NCBI RefSeq assembly: GCF_025384765.1
Contig: NZ_VHLL01000003.1
Location: 62,001 to 126,000 of the forward strand
From: Methanoculleus formosensis
GTDB lineage: Archaea > Halobacteriota > Methanomicrobia > Methanomicrobiales > Methanoculleaceae
Direction of reading: 5' to 3'
Length of the DNA: 64,000 bases
The position numbers were made by a program, and so were the translations under genes. The notes under the pieces were generated by a model. That model saw nothing but the letters and a program-made list of their open reading frames with translations, had not been told where the DNA came from and made no database searches. Shown here piece by piece: positions 26,389 to 34,047 of the stretch. The stretch's first letter is position 1, and each line of letters opens with the position of its first letter.

Positions 26389-29300
26389 TCATACGGCAAG
26401 CCGCTCCCGGATCCGCTTCACCGCATCCTCGGCGGCCTTCCGGGCGTACCAGTCCTCATCGTCAAAGATGCGCTCGAGGGGCGCAATCGCCCGTACATCC
26501 CCGATCTCGGCGAGCACGTCCGCCGCACGTTTCCGGACATCGCCGTCCGGGTCGTCGAGCGCGGAGACGACCAGTTCCACCGCCGGGGTTCCTATGGCGA
26601 TGAGCGCCGCTCCCGCCTCCCGCCGGACGCTGTAGTAGTCGTCGTGGAGGAGGCTCATGAGCCCCGGAGTCGCACGCGGGTCGCCGATCTCACCGAGGAT
26701 CATCGCCGCACGCCGCCGGATGCTGTCGTCGCGGTCGTCGAGCACCGCGAGCAGCGGTTCGACCGCGGCCGCTCCTGCCCGGGCGAGATCGCCCCATCGC
26801 TCCTTTGCGATCAGGTAGACGACCGATTCCTTCCCCGCCGCGGGCGACCAGCCCAGGCGATCAAGGGCGTCCGCAGCCCCGCAACGGACGCGGAAATGCT
26901 CATCGGCGAGCGCACCGGGGAGCAGGTGTGCTGCGGGCTCGTCGATCAGCACAAGTGCCGCCACCGCACCCTTCCGGGACGCCTCGTTCCCGTCCCTGAG
27001 AACCCGCAGGAGCGGCAGAACCGCCGGTTCGCCCATCAGGCCGAGCGCCCGCACCACGACGCGCCCCAGGCGCTGGTCGTCGTGCAGGAGCGCATCGATC
27101 AGCGGTTCGATGGCCGCCGGGTTCCCGATCTTGCCGAGCGTCGCGGCCGCTCCCACCCGTATCGTCGGGGGGGCAGCGCGGAGAGCCTTGACCAGTGGTT
27201 CGACTGCCGGATCCCCGATGCCGACGAGCGCCCGCGCCGCACCCAGGCGGATCTGCCAGTCGCGGTCCTGGAGAGCCTCGATGAGCGGCAGGACCGCCGG
27301 TTCACCCATCATTTTGAGCGCCTCGACCGCCTTTCTCTGCGTGCCGTCCTGTTCGGTGCGGAGCTCGTAGATCAGCCTCTCGACCGCGGGAGCCCCGATC
27401 AGCCCGAGCGCCCGCGCCGCACCGATCTGGATTGCGCTGTCGGGGTCGTTGAGCGTCCGGATCAACGGCTCGACCGCACCGGGCCCGATCCCGGCGACGA
27501 AAGTCCACTGTTCCTTCGCAATCAGGTAGCTGACGGTCTCGCTCTCGGTTTGCGGCTCCCATCCAGTCCTGCCGAGAACCTCTGCCGCGCCCAACCGTAC
27601 CGGGTAGCGTTCATCGTTGAGCGCCTGCACAAGCAGATCGACGACCGGGCCCCCGAGGCGGGTGAGGGCATCGATCGCCCCGAGCCTGAGGGTATCGTCG
27701 GGGTGTCCCAGTGCCCCGATGAGCGGGGCGGCAGCCGCCTCTCCAAGACCGGCAAGCAGATCTCCCGCCCGCTGCCGGATCAGGGCGTCGTCGCTCCCGA
27801 GCGCCTCGATCAACGCTTCGAAGGCCGCCATCCCCATCGCCTCAATGACACCGACGACGGTCTGTCCGATCTCGGGATCTCCGAGAACCGGGACGAGCGC
27901 GCCGGCCGCAGGACTTCCGATCCGGACAAGCACTCCGGCGGCCGTCTTGCGAAGCCGGGTCTTCTTCAGGGCCTGGATCAGCGGTTCCACTGCAACTTCG
28001 CCGATCCCGACAAGCGTCTCTTCCGCCGGCTCGCGGAGCGCCTTTCTGCCGAGCAGAAGGATCAGGGAGGGAACTGCAGGAGCCCCGATGCCGACGAGCG
28101 CCTTCATTGCTCCGGCCTGCACCACCGGGTCAAGGTCACCGAACCGCGCCACCAGGAGATCGACAGCGGGAGCGCCGAGACCCACGACCTCCACCCATCG
28201 CTGCAGCGCGATCAGGTAGACAATCTCCTCCGTTCCCCCTTCGGGGACCCACCCGAGCTGCTCGAGTACCCTCGCGGCTCCCATGCGGATCGACGAGGAC
28301 TCGTTGCTGAGTGCCCCGGCAAGCGGTTTGAGGGCCGGTTCACCGATCCCGGCGAGCGCCGCCGCCGCTCCTCCCTGACCGTCGCCCTCCTCGCCGAGGA
28401 GAGGGATAAGGGCATCTACCGCGGACGCACCGATCCCGATCAGGGCGTCGACGGCTTTTCGGTGAAGATGGTCTTCACCGGCCCTGACCAGTTCGACGAT
28501 GGCCGGAACCGCCTCAGACGCCCCGAGTCGGCCCAGAACCTCGACGGCGCTCTCCCTGGCGGCCCCGACCCCGCCTTCAAGCAGTTCGAGAACGGGCGCC
28601 ACGGCCGGTTCCCCAATGGCAACAAGCGCATCCGCCGCCACCGGGGCGACGTCCTCGTCAGCGAGGACACTCACGAGCGGCCCTACCGCCGCCGGATCGC
28701 CGATCTCGCCGAGCGTCGCTGCAGCCTCGCAGCGTATACGGGCGTCATCGGCGTTGAGCATCCGGATCAACGGCTCAACGGCCTGTGAGCCCATCAGAGC
28801 AAGTTCCATCCACTCCTCCCGGGCGATCAGGTACCAGGCCCGTTCGGAGTCGCTCCAGGGTTCCCAGTTCATCCCGCTGAGAATTTCAGCGACCTGAGAG
28901 CGAATGCGGGACTTTCTGGACGTCAGAGACTGGATCAGGGCCGGCACCGCCGGCTCACCGAGCGCACCGAGAACATGTAAAAGTGCCTCCTGCGCCTCCC
29001 CGTCCGTGGAGTCCAGGGCGCGAATACACGTCTCCACCGCGGGTTCGCCGATCTTCGCCAGAGCCCCCGCCGCAGTCCTGCGAAGGGAAGGGACAGAGAG
29101 GAGCCCGACGAGCGGCTCGACCGCAGGAGAACCGATCTCCGTGAGCGCCATGGCCGCCAGCGGGCGGATCTCGTCGCCCGCTTCGTGCAGAAGCTCGACC
29201 AGGGGATCGACCGCGGCCCCGCCGATCTCCCCGAGAGTCCGGGCGGCGTTCCACCACACCCCCTTATCGGGGGACTTCAGAATGCAGATGAGGGGCTCGA

Positions 29301-30651
29301 TCGCGGTCTCACCGTAATCCGCAACGTCGAGCCACGCCTCGTCGGCAATGAGGTAGCGTATTGCACCGGCGTCGTCAGGGGCTTTCCACCCGAGCTCCCG
29401 GAGAACGGAGGCCGCCGACCTTCGGATGCTCCGCTCAGGCGCATCGATGGCCTCGATGAGGAAGGGGATTGCTTCGTCACCGATCTCCCGGAGCGCGTAG
29501 CGGGCGCCGAACTGCACCTCGCCGTCGCCGTCGGCAAGCGCTGCGATGAGAGGCGGCACAGCGGGGCTCCCGATGCGCACGAGCGTGGCAGCCGCCCCGA
29601 TCTGCGCCGTGACGTCCCCGAGCGCAGCAATCAATGCAGGGATCGATTCCTCGCCGATCAGGGCAAGGGCTTCGGCGAAGCACCATCGCTCCCCGTCGCC
29701 CGCAAGAGCAAGCGCCCGGACCAGGGGCTCCACGGCATCGGCCCCACGCTCTGCGACGGCACTGGCGGCACGTCCGCGAACCCCGGCATCGTCGCTCCCG
29801 AGGTCATCGATGAGCGACTCTATCGGGCGTTCATCGTCTCCCCCCGCAGCCTCAGAAATGGGAGGGGGGGAGGCGTTCACGACCGCCAGATCTTCTTCAG
29901 AGAGATCGAGTTCGGCAAGCCCGGAAAAGGGGTCGAGATCTCCGTCCTCAAACCCCGGCATCTCCCTGAGTTCATCGGCGCCGAAGGAGGCAGGGTGCGG
30001 TGCAGGCTGGTCGTCCGGAACGCCGGGCATGCCGTCATCCAGGAGAGAATAGTCCGGGAGGTCTTCTGCCGCAGGATCCTCCGTGGGGGAGAGAGCATAG
30101 AGTTCGTCCGAGGAGGCGAGACCTGCGGGGCCATTCGCAGAAGGCTCCGTTGGGGGAGGAACAGTAGCCGTCTCGCCCGGCGAGATGAGTTCGTCGAACC
30201 GTCGGAGGGCATCAGGGATCCTCTCGATTCTCTCGAGGACGCTCGTCCCATCGTCGGCCGGGACATGCCTGCGCGGGGGTGTCTCAGCGGACAAACCGGC
30301 GACCGGGGGTTTGGGGTCGTCCTTGCTATCACTCTCTTCGGTATTCTTCGTCATCCAGTGCCTGATGAGCGAAGAACCGTTCGGGCCAAAGAGCCCGGGC
30401 AGGAAAACGATGGGAAATGCAGATTCAACCGCCGGCATACCCGGTACTCCCGCACCGGGCAGCAGGAGGAACAGGCATACGGTCCCGAAGATCGCACAGA
30501 GCAGAGCACGTAACGCCGGAAGAGATACACGATAGTCACCGGGTACACCGCCATCCATGGATACCGGCAGCACCATCACTACATCACAGATTCCGACTGC
30601 CGGATCGGCGGATGGACTGTCCGGGAATGCTCGTCGGCCCTCCATGCGCAT
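26389..30651 (-). CDS. Giant membrane-anchored HEAT-repeat protein (1420 aa)
   Basis: A 1420-residue protein. Residues about 40-95 contain two hydrophobic segments (ALRALLCAIFGTVCLFLLLPG and AFPIVFLPGLFG). Residues about 100-265 are an acidic, Pro-rich linker. The rest is a solenoid of PBS-lyase/HEAT repeats of about 30 residues ('AVEPLIxxLxDxxxxVRxxAAxALGxIG'). Five times, at about residues 430, 604, 810, 1040 and 1277, the solenoid is interrupted by a module reading GW-x-P-x(8-10)-YLIA-x3-W. HEAT scaffolds bind protein partners; here the scaffold would face the cytoplasm from the membrane. A TATA-like TTTAATTTTTA lies upstream of ATG 30651. It is a single-gene unit. Confidence 0.9.
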   Translation of the reverse strand: MRMEGRRAFPDSPSADPAVGICDVVMVLPVSMDGGVPGDYRVSLPALRALLCAIFGTVCLFLLLPGAGVPGMPAVESAFPIVFLPGLFGPNGSSLIRHWMTKNTEESDSKDDPKPPVAGLSAETPPRRHVPADDGTSVLERIERIPDALRRFDELISPGETATVPPPTEPSANGPAGLASSDELYALSPTEDPAAEDLPDYSLLDDGMPGVPDDQPAPHPASFGADELREMPGFEDGDLDPFSGLAELDLSEEDLAVVNASPPPISEAAGGDDERPIESLIDDLGSDDAGVRGRAASAVAERGADAVEPLVRALALAGDGERWCFAEALALIGEESIPALIAALGDVTAQIGAAATLVRIGSPAVPPLIAALADGDGEVQFGARYALREIGDEAIPFLIEAIDAPERSIRRSAASVLRELGWKAPDDAGAIRYLIADEAWLDVADYGETAIEPLICILKSPDKGVWWNAARTLGEIGGAAVDPLVELLHEAGDEIRPLAAMALTEIGSPAVEPLVGLLSVPSLRRTAAGALAKIGEPAVETCIRALDSTDGEAQEALLHVLGALGEPAVPALIQSLTSRKSRIRSQVAEILSGMNWEPWSDSERAWYLIAREEWMELALMGSQAVEPLIRMLNADDARIRCEAAATLGEIGDPAAVGPLVSVLADEDVAPVAADALVAIGEPAVAPVLELLEGGVGAARESAVEVLGRLGASEAVPAIVELVRAGEDHLHRKAVDALIGIGASAVDALIPLLGEEGDGQGGAAAALAGIGEPALKPLAGALSNESSSIRMGAARVLEQLGWVPEGGTEEIVYLIALQRWVEVVGLGAPAVDLLVARFGDLDPVVQAGAMKALVGIGAPAVPSLILLLGRKALREPAEETLVGIGEVAVEPLIQALKKTRLRKTAAGVLVRIGSPAAGALVPVLGDPEIGQTVVGVIEAMGMAAFEALIEALGSDDALIRQRAGDLLAGLGEAAAAPLIGALGHPDDTLRLGAIDALTRLGGPVVDLLVQALNDERYPVRLGAAEVLGRTGWEPQTESETVSYLIAKEQWTFVAGIGPGAVEPLIRTLNDPDSAIQIGAARALGLIGAPAVERLIYELRTEQDGTQRKAVEALKMMGEPAVLPLIEALQDRDWQIRLGAARALVGIGDPAVEPLVKALRAAPPTIRVGAAATLGKIGNPAAIEPLIDALLHDDQRLGRVVVRALGLMGEPAVLPLLRVLRDGNEASRKGAVAALVLIDEPAAHLLPGALADEHFRVRCGAADALDRLGWSPAAGKESVVYLIAKERWGDLARAGAAAVEPLLAVLDDRDDSIRRRAAMILGEIGDPRATPGLMSLLHDDYYSVRREAGAALIAIGTPAVELVVSALDDPDGDVRKRAADVLAEIGDVRAIAPLERIFDDEDWYARKAAEDAVKRIRERLAV

Positions 30652-30957: not shown

Positions 30958-31563
30958 TCAGAATCCTTCGTTCATGATCCGGTCGAGTTCCGAGCGCTTG
31001 ATCCGCCAGGATCCCCCGCACTTGACCGCCGGAATCCGCTCCTCCCGGATGAACTCCCGGATCCGGCCGGGGGTGAAGTTCAGGGTCGAAGCAACGTCGT
31101 CGACGGTGAGCATTGCGTCTCCCGTGGCATGATGGTGGCCGCGCCCGATCGTCTCCCAGTTTTCGTCCGGCAGCATGATGGTGATGACCGGTTCGCCGTC
31201 GTCCCCCGGGGAGACCGCAGCCTTGAAGGTCAGGGTGGGAACAATGCCGTTCTGGTAGAGGCTGACCTGAAACTCGAACTCCTCCTCGGTCGTCGTGCGG
31301 GCTTTGGCCCTGAATGCATGAAGGGTGTCCCAGAGGTTCTCCGTAACGGTCTCCTGCGGAATGTTCGGAAACGGAACCATGCTCTGTGCAGCCCGTGCCG
31401 AGACCGCAAGGGGGATCATGATGCCTATATCCCTTCCCATCCGGGTGATCTCGACCAGATCGCCGTCGTCGATGGCGTCCTGGCGCATCTTCCTCTGCTG
31501 TTCCGGGTCGGCCAGTCCCCAGATCTCTTCCGGTGTTCGCGATCGTAGTCTTCGTATCTCCAT
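30958..31563 (-). CDS. DNA-binding protein with C-terminal excisionase-type HTH
   Basis: A 201-residue protein. Residues about 145-195 match the excisionase/MerR-like helix-turn-helix: 'LTVDDVASTLNFTPGRIREFIREERIPAVKCGGSWRIKRSELDRIM' features. The N-terminal 140 residues contain an alpha/beta domain I do not recognise, with 'GDLVEITRMGRDIGIMIPLAVSARAA' features and a strand-rich part 'TLTFKAAVSPGDDGEPVITIML'. The domain order (sensor or partner domain first, HTH last) suggests a regulator rather than a phage excisionase. No integrase or other mobile gene lies nearby. Confidence 0.75.
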   Translation of the reverse strand: MEIRRLRSRTPEEIWGLADPEQQRKMRQDAIDDGDLVEITRMGRDIGIMIPLAVSARAAQSMVPFPNIPQETVTENLWDTLHAFRAKARTTTEEEFEFQVSLYQNGIVPTLTFKAAVSPGDDGEPVITIMLPDENWETIGRGHHHATGDAMLTVDDVASTLNFTPGRIREFIREERIPAVKCGGSWRIKRSELDRIMNEGF

Positions 31564-31871
31564 GGGCGTATCTCTCCAGAATAATTTCGCGCTCTACTAT
31601 ACCACTATAGGAATATCGATGATAAAAAATTTGCCAAAAATTTCAGAGTATTTTACGATTTCCTCTGTGTTAAAGGGATATTCGGGGGGCCCGGCAGGCG
31701 AAATGCCGCCATGATCGGGCATGAACCGTCATGTGACATCAGATAAGCCGGATTAAGGGCCAATAATCCAAATATAATGAATTAATGGGCTCGGAATTCC
31801 GGCTACCAACCCCGATACCGGGAGGGCTGCTCCGACAAAGCCTATATAGCATCAGGGTGAGTCTTGAAGCA
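31564..31871. other. Intergenic region with divergent promoters
   Basis: About 300 bases between divergent genes. AT-rich sequence at about 31600-31665 may serve the minus-strand HTH gene. AAATATAATGAATTAATGG at about 31769-31787 is a TATA-like region for the CARF operon. An in-frame ATG 31785 exists, but it lies too close to that box to be the main start. Confidence 0.45.
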
Positions 31872-32384
31872 GTGATTCCCCCCGTGACACCCGCTTCTCG
31901 CGACGCCTACATAACACTTCTCGGGCGCTCGACATGGGCGCTCGTCAACGCTTACCACGCAGTCCTGCATGAGAAGGAGCTGCGCCCCGAACGGGTCATT
32001 ATCGTCACCGAAGAACCCTACGCGCAGGAAGCATCGGTCGCGGCCAGGGCGATTGGAGCCATCTCGGAGGGATATGGGTTCGTCCCCGCGATCGAGACGG
32101 AGATCCTGCCCGAAGCGGACTTTGTACGGGCCGGGCAGACGATACGGGCGCTTGCCGGCGACCTCATCGAGCAGGGACTCGACGTGGCGATCGATATCAC
32201 CTCCGGCAGGAAGGTCACGGTCGCCGGGGCGCTCATCGCGGTCTCGGTCGCGGGGCTCGATATCCGGCACATCTATTATCTTGCCATGAAGAACACCGAC
32301 GACGTTGCAAAGCCCTATATGATGATCCCGCACCAGATCCAGCAGATCCGGGATATCATGGAGGATGCGGGGGAGATAAGATGA
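31872..32384 (+). CDS. CARF-like Rossmann sensor protein
   Basis: A 170-residue single-domain protein with the layout of CARF domains that sense cyclic oligonucleotides: 'AYITLLGRSTWALVNAYHAVL' features (residues 12-32) as the first strand and ligand loop, 'RVIIVTEEPYAQEASVAARAI' features, then 'AIDITSGRKVTVAGAL' (D108 to K114) in place of the usual D-x-T/S-G-G-x-K loop, and 'IRHIYYL'. I start at GTG 31872 because AGGGTGAG lies about 10 bases upstream; ATG 31785 and GTG 31857 are alternatives. It overlaps the PIN-like gene by ATGA. There is no CRISPR array or cas gene in the window. The CARF call is by motif reading and could be another Rossmann-like family. Confidence 0.65.
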   Translation: MIPPVTPASRDAYITLLGRSTWALVNAYHAVLHEKELRPERVIIVTEEPYAQEASVAARAIGAISEGYGFVPAIETEILPEADFVRAGQTIRALAGDLIEQGLDVAIDITSGRKVTVAGALIAVSVAGLDIRHIYYLAMKNTDDVAKPYMMIPHQIQQIRDIMEDAGEIR

Positions 32385-33388
32385 ACGACGCGGTCATCAG
32401 GGAGGAGCACCTGCAGGTTCTCATCAACAGCCTCGACGAGATCCGCGTCACCTACCCGCTCTACGAGGGCGAGATCCTGGTCGCACGCCCCGAAGGCACC
32501 GGATTCTCGCTCGAACTGCCCGCGTCCCGCGAGACCTTCAAAGACTGGGTTGCCGGATACGAACCCGTCTCCGCGGAGCTCCCATCGTATGCCGATCTCC
32601 AGGAGTGCATGTTTGCAAGCGGGATAGCCCGCTACGTGAACCATGCCGCTTTTGAATCGATGCTTGCTTCGTATGGGCAGCTCAAGAAGGCCGTCTTCTT
32701 CGGTCTCGATACGAACCTCTTCTATCACGGGTTTGCATCGAACAACCCGCAGATCGAGCACGCTTCATACCTGATCGTCGATACCGTCCGCGACGAGATC
32801 GCGTATGCCATCAACCGCAAGTACCCGGCAAAGACGATCGGTGAGATGACGGCGCTGGCGCCCGACTGCCGGGAGTACATCGCGGAACTCGAGAACAAGC
32901 GGACGAAGCGGTCACGCAAAGCAGCGTATCTTGCGCTGAAAGAGTACAGCACCATCCGTGACCGGGCGACGGAGATCGCGGCCCCGGGCACGCATACGCA
33001 CCTCTCCGAGGAGAACGATTACAATATCGTCCGGGCGCTGCGCAAGTTCGAGGAAGAGCGGTACGCCCTCCCGGTCCTCCTGACCGCCGACACCTACATG
33101 GCCGACCTCTGCATGGCCGAGGGGCTCGAGTACTTTTACTTCGACCGCCCATATAGATTAGAGGTAACAGCCTGCACGGCGCCGGCGTTCCGGCGACTGC
33201 TCTTCAACCTTGCCGCCGTCTTCGGGTTCGTGAACTGTAGCGAAATCGCGATCTTCGGCGAGTATGGCGGGAAGGGCAACGAACTCGACGAACTCAAAGT
33301 CCGTTTCCGGGACGACGGGGCGTACCGTGCATTCATGAGGGAACTCAAGATATGCAGGCACCTTACGGCACTCGGCATAAGACGGTAG
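32381..33388 (+). CDS. PIN-like nuclease candidate, partner of the CARF-like protein
   Basis: A 335-residue protein. Residues about 103-255 have PIN-domain landmarks: 'AVFFGLDTNLFYHGF' (D110), 'YLIVDTVRDEIAYAI' (E139), 'EENDYNIVRALRKF' (D213) and 'PVLLTADTYMADLCMAEGLEYFYF' features (D237, D242), the acidic quartet of VapC-like RNases. An N-terminal domain (1-100) and a C-terminal domain (about 256-335, 'AAVFGFVNCSEIAIFGEYGGKG') are unassigned. PIN domains cleave RNA. It is co-translated with the CARF-like sensor (ATGA) and overlaps the HAD gene by 37 bases, so signal-controlled nuclease activity is a reasonable inference. Confidence 0.68.
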   Translation: MNDAVIREEHLQVLINSLDEIRVTYPLYEGEILVARPEGTGFSLELPASRETFKDWVAGYEPVSAELPSYADLQECMFASGIARYVNHAAFESMLASYGQLKKAVFFGLDTNLFYHGFASNNPQIEHASYLIVDTVRDEIAYAINRKYPAKTIGEMTALAPDCREYIAELENKRTKRSRKAAYLALKEYSTIRDRATEIAAPGTHTHLSEENDYNIVRALRKFEEERYALPVLLTADTYMADLCMAEGLEYFYFDRPYRLEVTACTAPAFRRLLFNLAAVFGFVNCSEIAIFGEYGGKGNELDELKVRFRDDGAYRAFMRELKICRHLTALGIRR

Positions 33389-34047
33389 AGGCGGTCCTCT
33401 GCGACATGGACAACACCCTCTTCGACTTTGTCGGAGCGAAGCGGGAGGCGTGCCGGTGCGTCGTCGACTGCATCGGAACCGGCGACCCTGAAGCCCTCTT
33501 TTCCCAGTTTCTCCGGGGGGTTCACGGGTTCGAGGACTATGAGAACATACGCGACTATCTTGTAGACCTCGGGGTGTACGAGGAGCGGACGTTCGAGGTC
33601 TGCTGCCGCACCTATGAGGACGTGAAACTCGGCCTGGTCGAACCGTACCCGCGCGTCGAGGAGACGCTCCGGTGCCTCCGGGACGCCGGGATCTCTCTCG
33701 CGGTCGTGACCGACGCGGAGTCTTTCCATGCGCGCCGGCGGCTCGAGAAGACCGGACTCATCGATTACTTCGAAACGGTGGTGACCCCTGATATTTCGGG
33801 CAGGCGGAAACCGGAGCCCGACTCACTCGTCTACGCCCTCCGGCGGCTCGATGCGGCTCCGGCAAGGGCGATGATGGTCGGCGACAGCCTGGTCCGCGAC
33901 ATCGCTCCGGGGAGGCGTCTCGGAATGGTGACCGCGTTTGCCGCCTACGGAGACTGGCGCGACAGCAGCCCGGCGGAGATCGAGGCCGACATCGTTCTCG
34001 CAGAGTTCGCCGAACTCACCGCCCACCTGAACATACCGGGCCGGTGA
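33352..34047 (+). CDS. HAD-superfamily phosphatase
   Basis: A 231-residue HAD hydrolase. Motif I is 'VLCDMDNTLFDF' (D18, D20), motif II 'LAVVTDAESF', motif III the lysine in 'SGRRKPEPDS', and motif IV 'MMVGDSLVRDIAPGRRLGM'. A helical cap lies between motifs I and II, so it belongs with phosphoglycolate-phosphatase-like enzymes. The start ATG 33352 is inside the last 37 bases of the PIN-like gene, an unusually deep overlap. It may dephosphorylate a nucleotide or repair product linked to the operon, but housekeeping phosphatase is equally possible. Confidence 0.85.
   Translation: MQAPYGTRHKTVEAVLCDMDNTLFDFVGAKREACRCVVDCIGTGDPEALFSQFLRGVHGFEDYENIRDYLVDLGVYEERTFEVCCRTYEDVKLGLVEPYPRVEETLRCLRDAGISLAVVTDAESFHARRRLEKTGLIDYFETVVTPDISGRRKPEPDSLVYALRRLDAAPARAMMVGDSLVRDIAPGRRLGMVTAFAAYGDWRDSSPAEIEADIVLAEFAELTAHLNIPGR

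Follow-up and report, generated by a model that had tools for sequence, protein, structure and literature searches.

To our knowledge, CARF domains have been met almost wholly through type III CRISPR systems, with Cas10, the known cyclic oligoadenylate (cOA) synthase, as the maker of their signal. The CARF_m1 family among them was reportedly set up by Makarova et al. 2020 (NAR gkaa635) in their classification of CARF proteins. In SiRe_0806 of Sulfolobus islandicus, a CARF and a PIN domain are fused in one polypeptide of 429 residues; structures are available in the apo form (PDB 9JXW) and with cA4 (PDB 9JXX) under the label 'PIN domain-containing protein', and our literature search returned no paper describing the protein. 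Crn1 (Sso2081, Sis0455) is a stand-alone single CARF domain, and in Sso2081 R105 and K106 contact cA4, the R105A substitution abolishing binding (PMC10018336). Chp, a CARF-HAD effector, is a single membrane protein found beside type III-A CRISPR (PMC12715507).

Here we report an operon in which the CARF and PIN proteins are encoded by two genes and are followed by a gene for a HAD phosphatase. It lies in what we call the window, the whole 64-kb stretch of DNA that was analysed. On balance, we think it probable that the operon encodes an RNase of two subunits, gated by a cyclic (oligo)adenylate, and has come to serve housekeeping or innate defence.

Organization and genomic setting of the operon

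All three ORFs are present on the plus strand and are tightly packed, as claimed in a preliminary description (Table 1). The CARF and PIN genes are joined by a 4-base ATGA overlap, and the HAD gene starts 37 bases within the end of the PIN gene, in agreement with the overlap first reported. The CARF ORF spans 31785-32384. The preliminary description gave its product 170 aa, which a GTG start at 31872 would yield; that start is possible, but the start codon of the 166-aa version (also GTG, and ATG in several relatives) is better kept across the genus. The relatives that bear names belong to Methanoculleus and share 75-92% identity. The TATA-like element upstream is probably an archaeal promoter.

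Table 1. Features of the window, with positions counted from its first base
Feature	Position	Strand	Basis or remark
TATA-like element AAAGCCTATATAG	31840..31849	+	about 30 bases 5' of the CARF start; kept in genus upstream alignments
Stand-alone CARF_m1 sensor (predicted), 166 aa	31884..32384	+	start by genus conservation; alternatives GTG 31872 and ATG 31785
PIN-domain nuclease (predicted), 335 aa	32381..33388	+	PADLOC, AlphaFold, Foldseek, invariant quartet
HAD subclass IA phosphatase (predicted), 231 aa	33352..34047	+	Pfam and conserved motifs
DUF6573 and excisionase-like HTH gene	30958..31563	-	upstream; neighbour in most genus and family members
1420-aa ORF with many HEAT-like repeats	26389..30651	-	
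69-base unit, three copies in tandem	47314..47520		copies 78-84% similar; likely a protein repeat kept in frame

In composition the operon matches the window, with GC contents of 0.61 (CARF), 0.60 (PIN) and 0.64 (HAD) against 0.62. It is flanked by the HTH/DUF6573 gene on one side and by methanogenesis marker 8 on the other, and the locus is not in an evident defence island.

The CARF sensor

The product of the first gene matches the PADLOC model CARF_m1--CARF with an E value of 2e-63, the best model outside CARF_m1/CARF_PIN reaching 9e-7, while Pfam returned only a sub-threshold Csa3_N. Its AlphaFold model has a pLDDT of 89.4, and the best Foldseek matches are Cam1, Csm6, SiRe_0806, Csa3 and ring nucleases including Crn1 (E from 4.6e-8). 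There were 67 matches in the PDB at E ≤ 0.001; the 50 listed are all CARF proteins, and the best are all cyclic-oligoadenylate sensors. On the evidence of this predicted structure, the protein is a stand-alone CARF with a Rossmann-like CARF fold, and the alternative of a non-CARF Rossmann domain is not borne out.

The CARF-like loop singled out in the preliminary description, AIDITSGRKVTVAG, is found in this protein. Among 33 diverse relatives the loop that follows strand 4 reads DIT[SP]GRK, with Lys at position 110 in 33/33 and Arg or Lys at position 109 in 33/33. Y132 and P149 are, like K110, invariant in this set, and D104, T106 and G108 are nearly so. A profile limited to residues 66-135 aligns D-I-T-x-G-R-K with D100-K106 of Sso2081, so that G-R-K corresponds to G104-R105-K106. 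R109 is replaced by Lys in 4 of the 33 relatives, and D79, a possible counterpart of Sso2081 D75 (which falls beyond the local alignment), varies among them; this variation speaks against a settled cA4 specificity.

PDB profile searches with the CARF alignment were topped by TAL-effector repeats. These were rejected as artefacts, being sums of many weak repeats with no single significant stretch; they vanish when the profile is limited to residues 66-135. Single-sequence searches of the PDB gave nothing useful.

The PIN nuclease

The second protein comprises an N-terminal extra domain (~1-100), a PIN core (~105-255) and a C-terminal domain in which a GEYxGKG motif is conserved. Within the PADLOC profile CARF_m1--CARF_PIN, it is the PIN half that the protein matches (E 3e-18); Pfam PIN_4 is weak alone (E 0.12). 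The AlphaFold model (pLDDT 94.2) has SiRe_0806 with cA4 as its best Foldseek match (E 4e-7), and the PIN domains 3i8o, SMG6 and AF0591 are among the top matches, in support of the PIN fold proposed earlier.

The acidic quartet consists of D110, E139, D213 and D237. None of the four varies in an alignment of 31 close relatives or in one of 33 diverse relatives, whose identity falls as low as 19%; the latter alignment has only 11 invariant columns, the quartet among them. The first three acids are those originally named; for the fourth, D237 and D242 had both been offered, and D242 is not conserved. By fold and quartet, the protein appears to be a PIN nuclease, with metal-dependent RNase activity predicted. 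The CARF and PIN profiles show no homology to each other, and at the sensitivity used our search for the PIN family in viral contigs found none.

Both proteins can be laid against the fused homologue. Window CARF profiles match SiRe_0806 residues 5-134 with E values of 2.8e-7 and 3.8e-6, and the PIN profile matches residues 263-356 weakly (E 0.13). The existence of a cA4-bound CARF-PIN fusion supplies a Rosetta-stone argument that the window CARF and PIN act as one machine.

A small gene upstream of a PIN gene, overlapping it by ATGA, is also what a toxin-antitoxin operon of VapBC layout would offer, with the CARF protein as antitoxin to a PIN toxin. We hold this to be very improbable. VapBC places a DNA-binding antitoxin 5' of a small PIN toxin, but the CARF protein has no HTH or DNA-binding domain and carries a conserved ligand loop, and the PIN proteins, at 335 aa, have extra conserved domains. 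VapBC modules, moreover, are mobile, whereas the pair is fixed in the genus at one copy per genome.

The HAD phosphatase and its overlap with the PIN gene

Pfam assigns the third protein to Hydrolase (E 1.8e-26) and HAD_2 (E 2e-24), and the motifs D18xD20, T120, K153 and G177-D178 are conserved at at least 97% (48 rows). Going by its sequence, it is an HAD-IA phosphatase with four intact motifs and a C1 cap.

Of the 64 loci with an adjacent HAD gene, 58 have a PIN/HAD overlap of exactly 37 bases, among them loci from Methanomicrobiales, Methanosarcinaceae and some genomes of family f9; six f9 genomes have an overlap of 17 bases and a HAD gene starting with TTG. At the 37-base joint the HAD start codon is built from the final A of one PIN codon and the TGC or TGT of a conserved PIN cysteine. 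Since the ATG reads across this cysteine codon, part of the conservation of the cysteine may reflect the overlap. At one locus (L062, genome G145) the HAD gene has been relocated ~7 kb away, and the PIN gene retains the GTA-TGC of the former HAD start.

HAD homologues occur in 183 of 198 class genomes, mostly without the CARF-PIN pair, and the pairs of Thermococcus and Sigynarchaeum lack a HAD gene. As the homologues are so common without the pair, HAD is best described as a frequent but not obligate partner, and it may be only loosely associated with the pair. In the HAD tree, from which one mis-framed sequence (L066) was disregarded, operonic copies were not separated from solo copies, and a single operonic clade was not resolved.

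Conservation, spread and selection

Of the 199 class genomes, 59 carry the CARF gene and exactly these carry the PIN gene; the two are neighbours in every case, which bears out the suggestion that the genes are co-conserved in related genomes. In the genus, the PIN gene is present in 34 of 35 genomes and in all 24 of the good ones. The few CARF-profile matches that lack a PIN neighbour are weak matches, fragments or at contig ends. The pair is not confined to the class: Methanolobus and Methanosalsum (Methanosarcinaceae), Thermococcus, Candidatus Sigynarchaeum (an Asgard archaeon) and several other families of the phylum have it too. Together, the CARF_m1 match (E 2e-63), the occurrence in the same 59/199 genomes and the overlap fixed in 58/64 loci place the three-gene pattern far beyond chance.

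The CARF and PIN gene trees each contain a core clade that holds the window, a clade from families f13, f17, f21 and f27, and a Cas10-linked clade, although long branches leave deep placement unsure. The second of these (L161-L166 and L215) consists of diverged, acidic CARF-PIN proteins, probably haloarchaeal, with no HAD and from genomes without Cas10; the L161 pair adjoins an integrase gene. Two distant relatives within the core clade lie, unlike the Methanoculleus locus, beside restriction genes, one of McrBC type (L167:2750-10856) and one of Eco57I-type restriction-modification (L130:2829-5441). At an f9 locus (L211:4402-6537, genome G229), a small second PIN protein (PF01850) lies between the CARF and large PIN genes, and the gap between CARF and PIN at L210 resembles it.

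Median dN/dS is 0.17 for CARF, 0.19 for PIN and 0.26 for HAD, with 0.17 for the core gene methanogenesis marker 8. Values so near that of marker 8 indicate core-gene constraint rather than decay.

Such conservation and selection suit a housekeeping role. In one reading of that kind, the CARF would bind an RNA fragment or a 2',3'-cyclic-phosphate end, and PIN and HAD would help to survey RNA or to process its ends. RNA decay is a process in which PIN domains are met repeatedly, and exosome RRP44 gives a weak match to the PIN profile (E 0.0075). A CARF working free of Cas10 has a precedent in RtcR, whose divergent CARF responds to damaged tRNA (PMC7790460). We nevertheless consider an RNA-end sensor rather unlikely here: the GRK loop and the single-domain CARF look like those of cOA binders, the fused homologue was solved with cA4, and no RNA ligase or cyclase gene is present alongside the operon. 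The motif spacing of the HAD protein, too, points to a C1-capped small-molecule enzyme and not to one of the RNA 3'-phosphatase type.

Relation to type III CRISPR and other signal sources

Two models detected no Cas10 in the host genome, which is 99% complete, and mCpol is absent from it. The preliminary description stated that the window has no CRISPR array or cas gene; we likewise found no CRISPR-like array within the 64 kb, but the genome is not CRISPR-free, as it has two cas1 genes elsewhere. Across the class, Cas10 occurs in 5 of 59 genomes with the pair and in 15 of 139 without it (p = 0.80). Phylum-wide, the figures are 16/54 and 39/241 (p = 0.03), an excess that is gone (p = 0.67) once seven genomes are removed in which Cas10 and the pair share a contig.

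One distant clade of the split pair is truly ancillary to type III systems, and the window's clade is unlinked. At L175:6154-13977 (genome G339), for example, a type III locus runs in the order Cas10, RAMPs, CARF, PIN and a Csm6-type protein; split CARF-PIN pairs also lie inside type III CRISPR loci at L177, L203 and L176. Cas10 nearby or in the genome, which would mark a type III ancillary, is found only for that clade and not for the window. Type III CRISPR as a general partner of the window's clade was rejected, there being no host Cas10 and no class-wide association.

The physical linkage of that distant clade to Cas10, and the presence of Cas10 in 2 of 34 genus members, would fit an orphan type III effector that works in trans with Cas10 (supplied by other loci, by mobile elements or through horizontal transfer), its presence being a remnant of lost type III systems. 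We judge this quite improbable, given that Cas10 is alike in frequency in class genomes with and without the pair, and that a long branch separates the window's clade from the Cas10-linked one. A useless remnant, moreover, would retain neither fixation in the genus nor a core-gene dN/dS.

Cyclic adenylate could be available without Cas10, as a DAC-domain cyclase is encoded in 195 of 198 class genomes, including the host. The CARF might accordingly sense a core cyclic dinucleotide of the c-di-AMP type and serve not immunity but a switch of RNA decay tied to stress or osmolytes. This seems to us clearly unlikely. DAC is equally frequent where CARF-PIN is absent, so its co-occurrence is uninformative, and our literature search found no c-di-AMP-binding CARF protein.

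Proposed mechanism

We return to the gated RNase that we favour. Backed by the fused, cA4-bound homologue 9JXX, the stand-alone signal-controlled RNase proposed in the preliminary description is the best reading of the pair. The CARF protein would most likely dimerise and bind a ligand of the cyclic adenylate type, and the dimer would form a complex with the separately encoded PIN protein. Ligand-bound CARF could then switch on, or de-repress, the metal-dependent RNase of PIN, with RNA as the presumed substrate. The co-translated HAD protein would most likely clear the nucleotide product or signal, or could be a second effector. The operon is a permanent chromosomal gene set of these methanogens and would work without Cas10. 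Candidates for the ligand itself are a cOA whose source has escaped detection, c-di-AMP or, on the RtcR model, RNA ends. This reading draws on the folds, the invariant catalytic and ligand-loop residues, the obligate pairing, the operon overlaps, the core-gene conservation and the lack of a Cas10 association in the class, all obtained by computation.

A fuller version is more tentative, a real possibility that stops short of being probable: an RNA-decay switch, fixed in methanogens and independent of CRISPR, that is gated by a cyclic nucleotide. In it, a non-Cas10 adenylate would reach the CARF, PIN would cut RNA and HAD would reset the signal. If true, this switch would be a housekeeping or innate relative of the type III CARF-PIN effectors, either their source or their domesticated form. 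A sensor-nuclease pair kept as a core operon in mostly Cas10-less methanogens raises the testable question of what a CARF senses without Cas10. Owing to the split architecture, sensor and nuclease can be purified separately and mixed, and the type III-linked split pair (e.g. at L175) offers a direct comparison for ligand specificity.

Comparison with known systems

CARF, PIN, CARF_m1 and fused CARF-PIN proteins are known already. What appears to be new is a core operon, independent of Cas10, in which CARF and PIN are split and the joint to HAD is fixed; we found no description of it in the literature searched, and Makarova 2020 may note part of it. The PADLOC CARF_m1 models (PDLC01971 and 01972, CARF; PDLC01973, CARF_PIN) name parts only; the window CARF matches CARF_m1--CARF, and the window PIN matches the PIN half of CARF_m1--CARF_PIN.

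Like Crn1, the window CARF is a stand-alone single domain, with its DITxGRK aligned to G104-R105-K106; the N-terminal Ser of the GRS motif is aligned by profile offset only. Ring nucleases of the Crn1 type cleave cA4 by means of a catalytic Ser and a lid Tyr. In contrast to Crn1, the gene of the window CARF is paired with that of a nuclease, and the helical insert bearing the lid tyrosine of Sso2081 (Tyr133) was not identified in the window CARF. Chp resembles the operon in that a CARF sensor is functionally tied to a HAD phosphatase, whereas in the operon the HAD protein is soluble and separately encoded, and the genome has no Cas10. SiRe_0806 is matched by both window proteins in fold, and by the CARF in profile as well. 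Identity is low (12-21%), and the window pair, divided between two genes, is accompanied by a HAD gene and by no Cas10.
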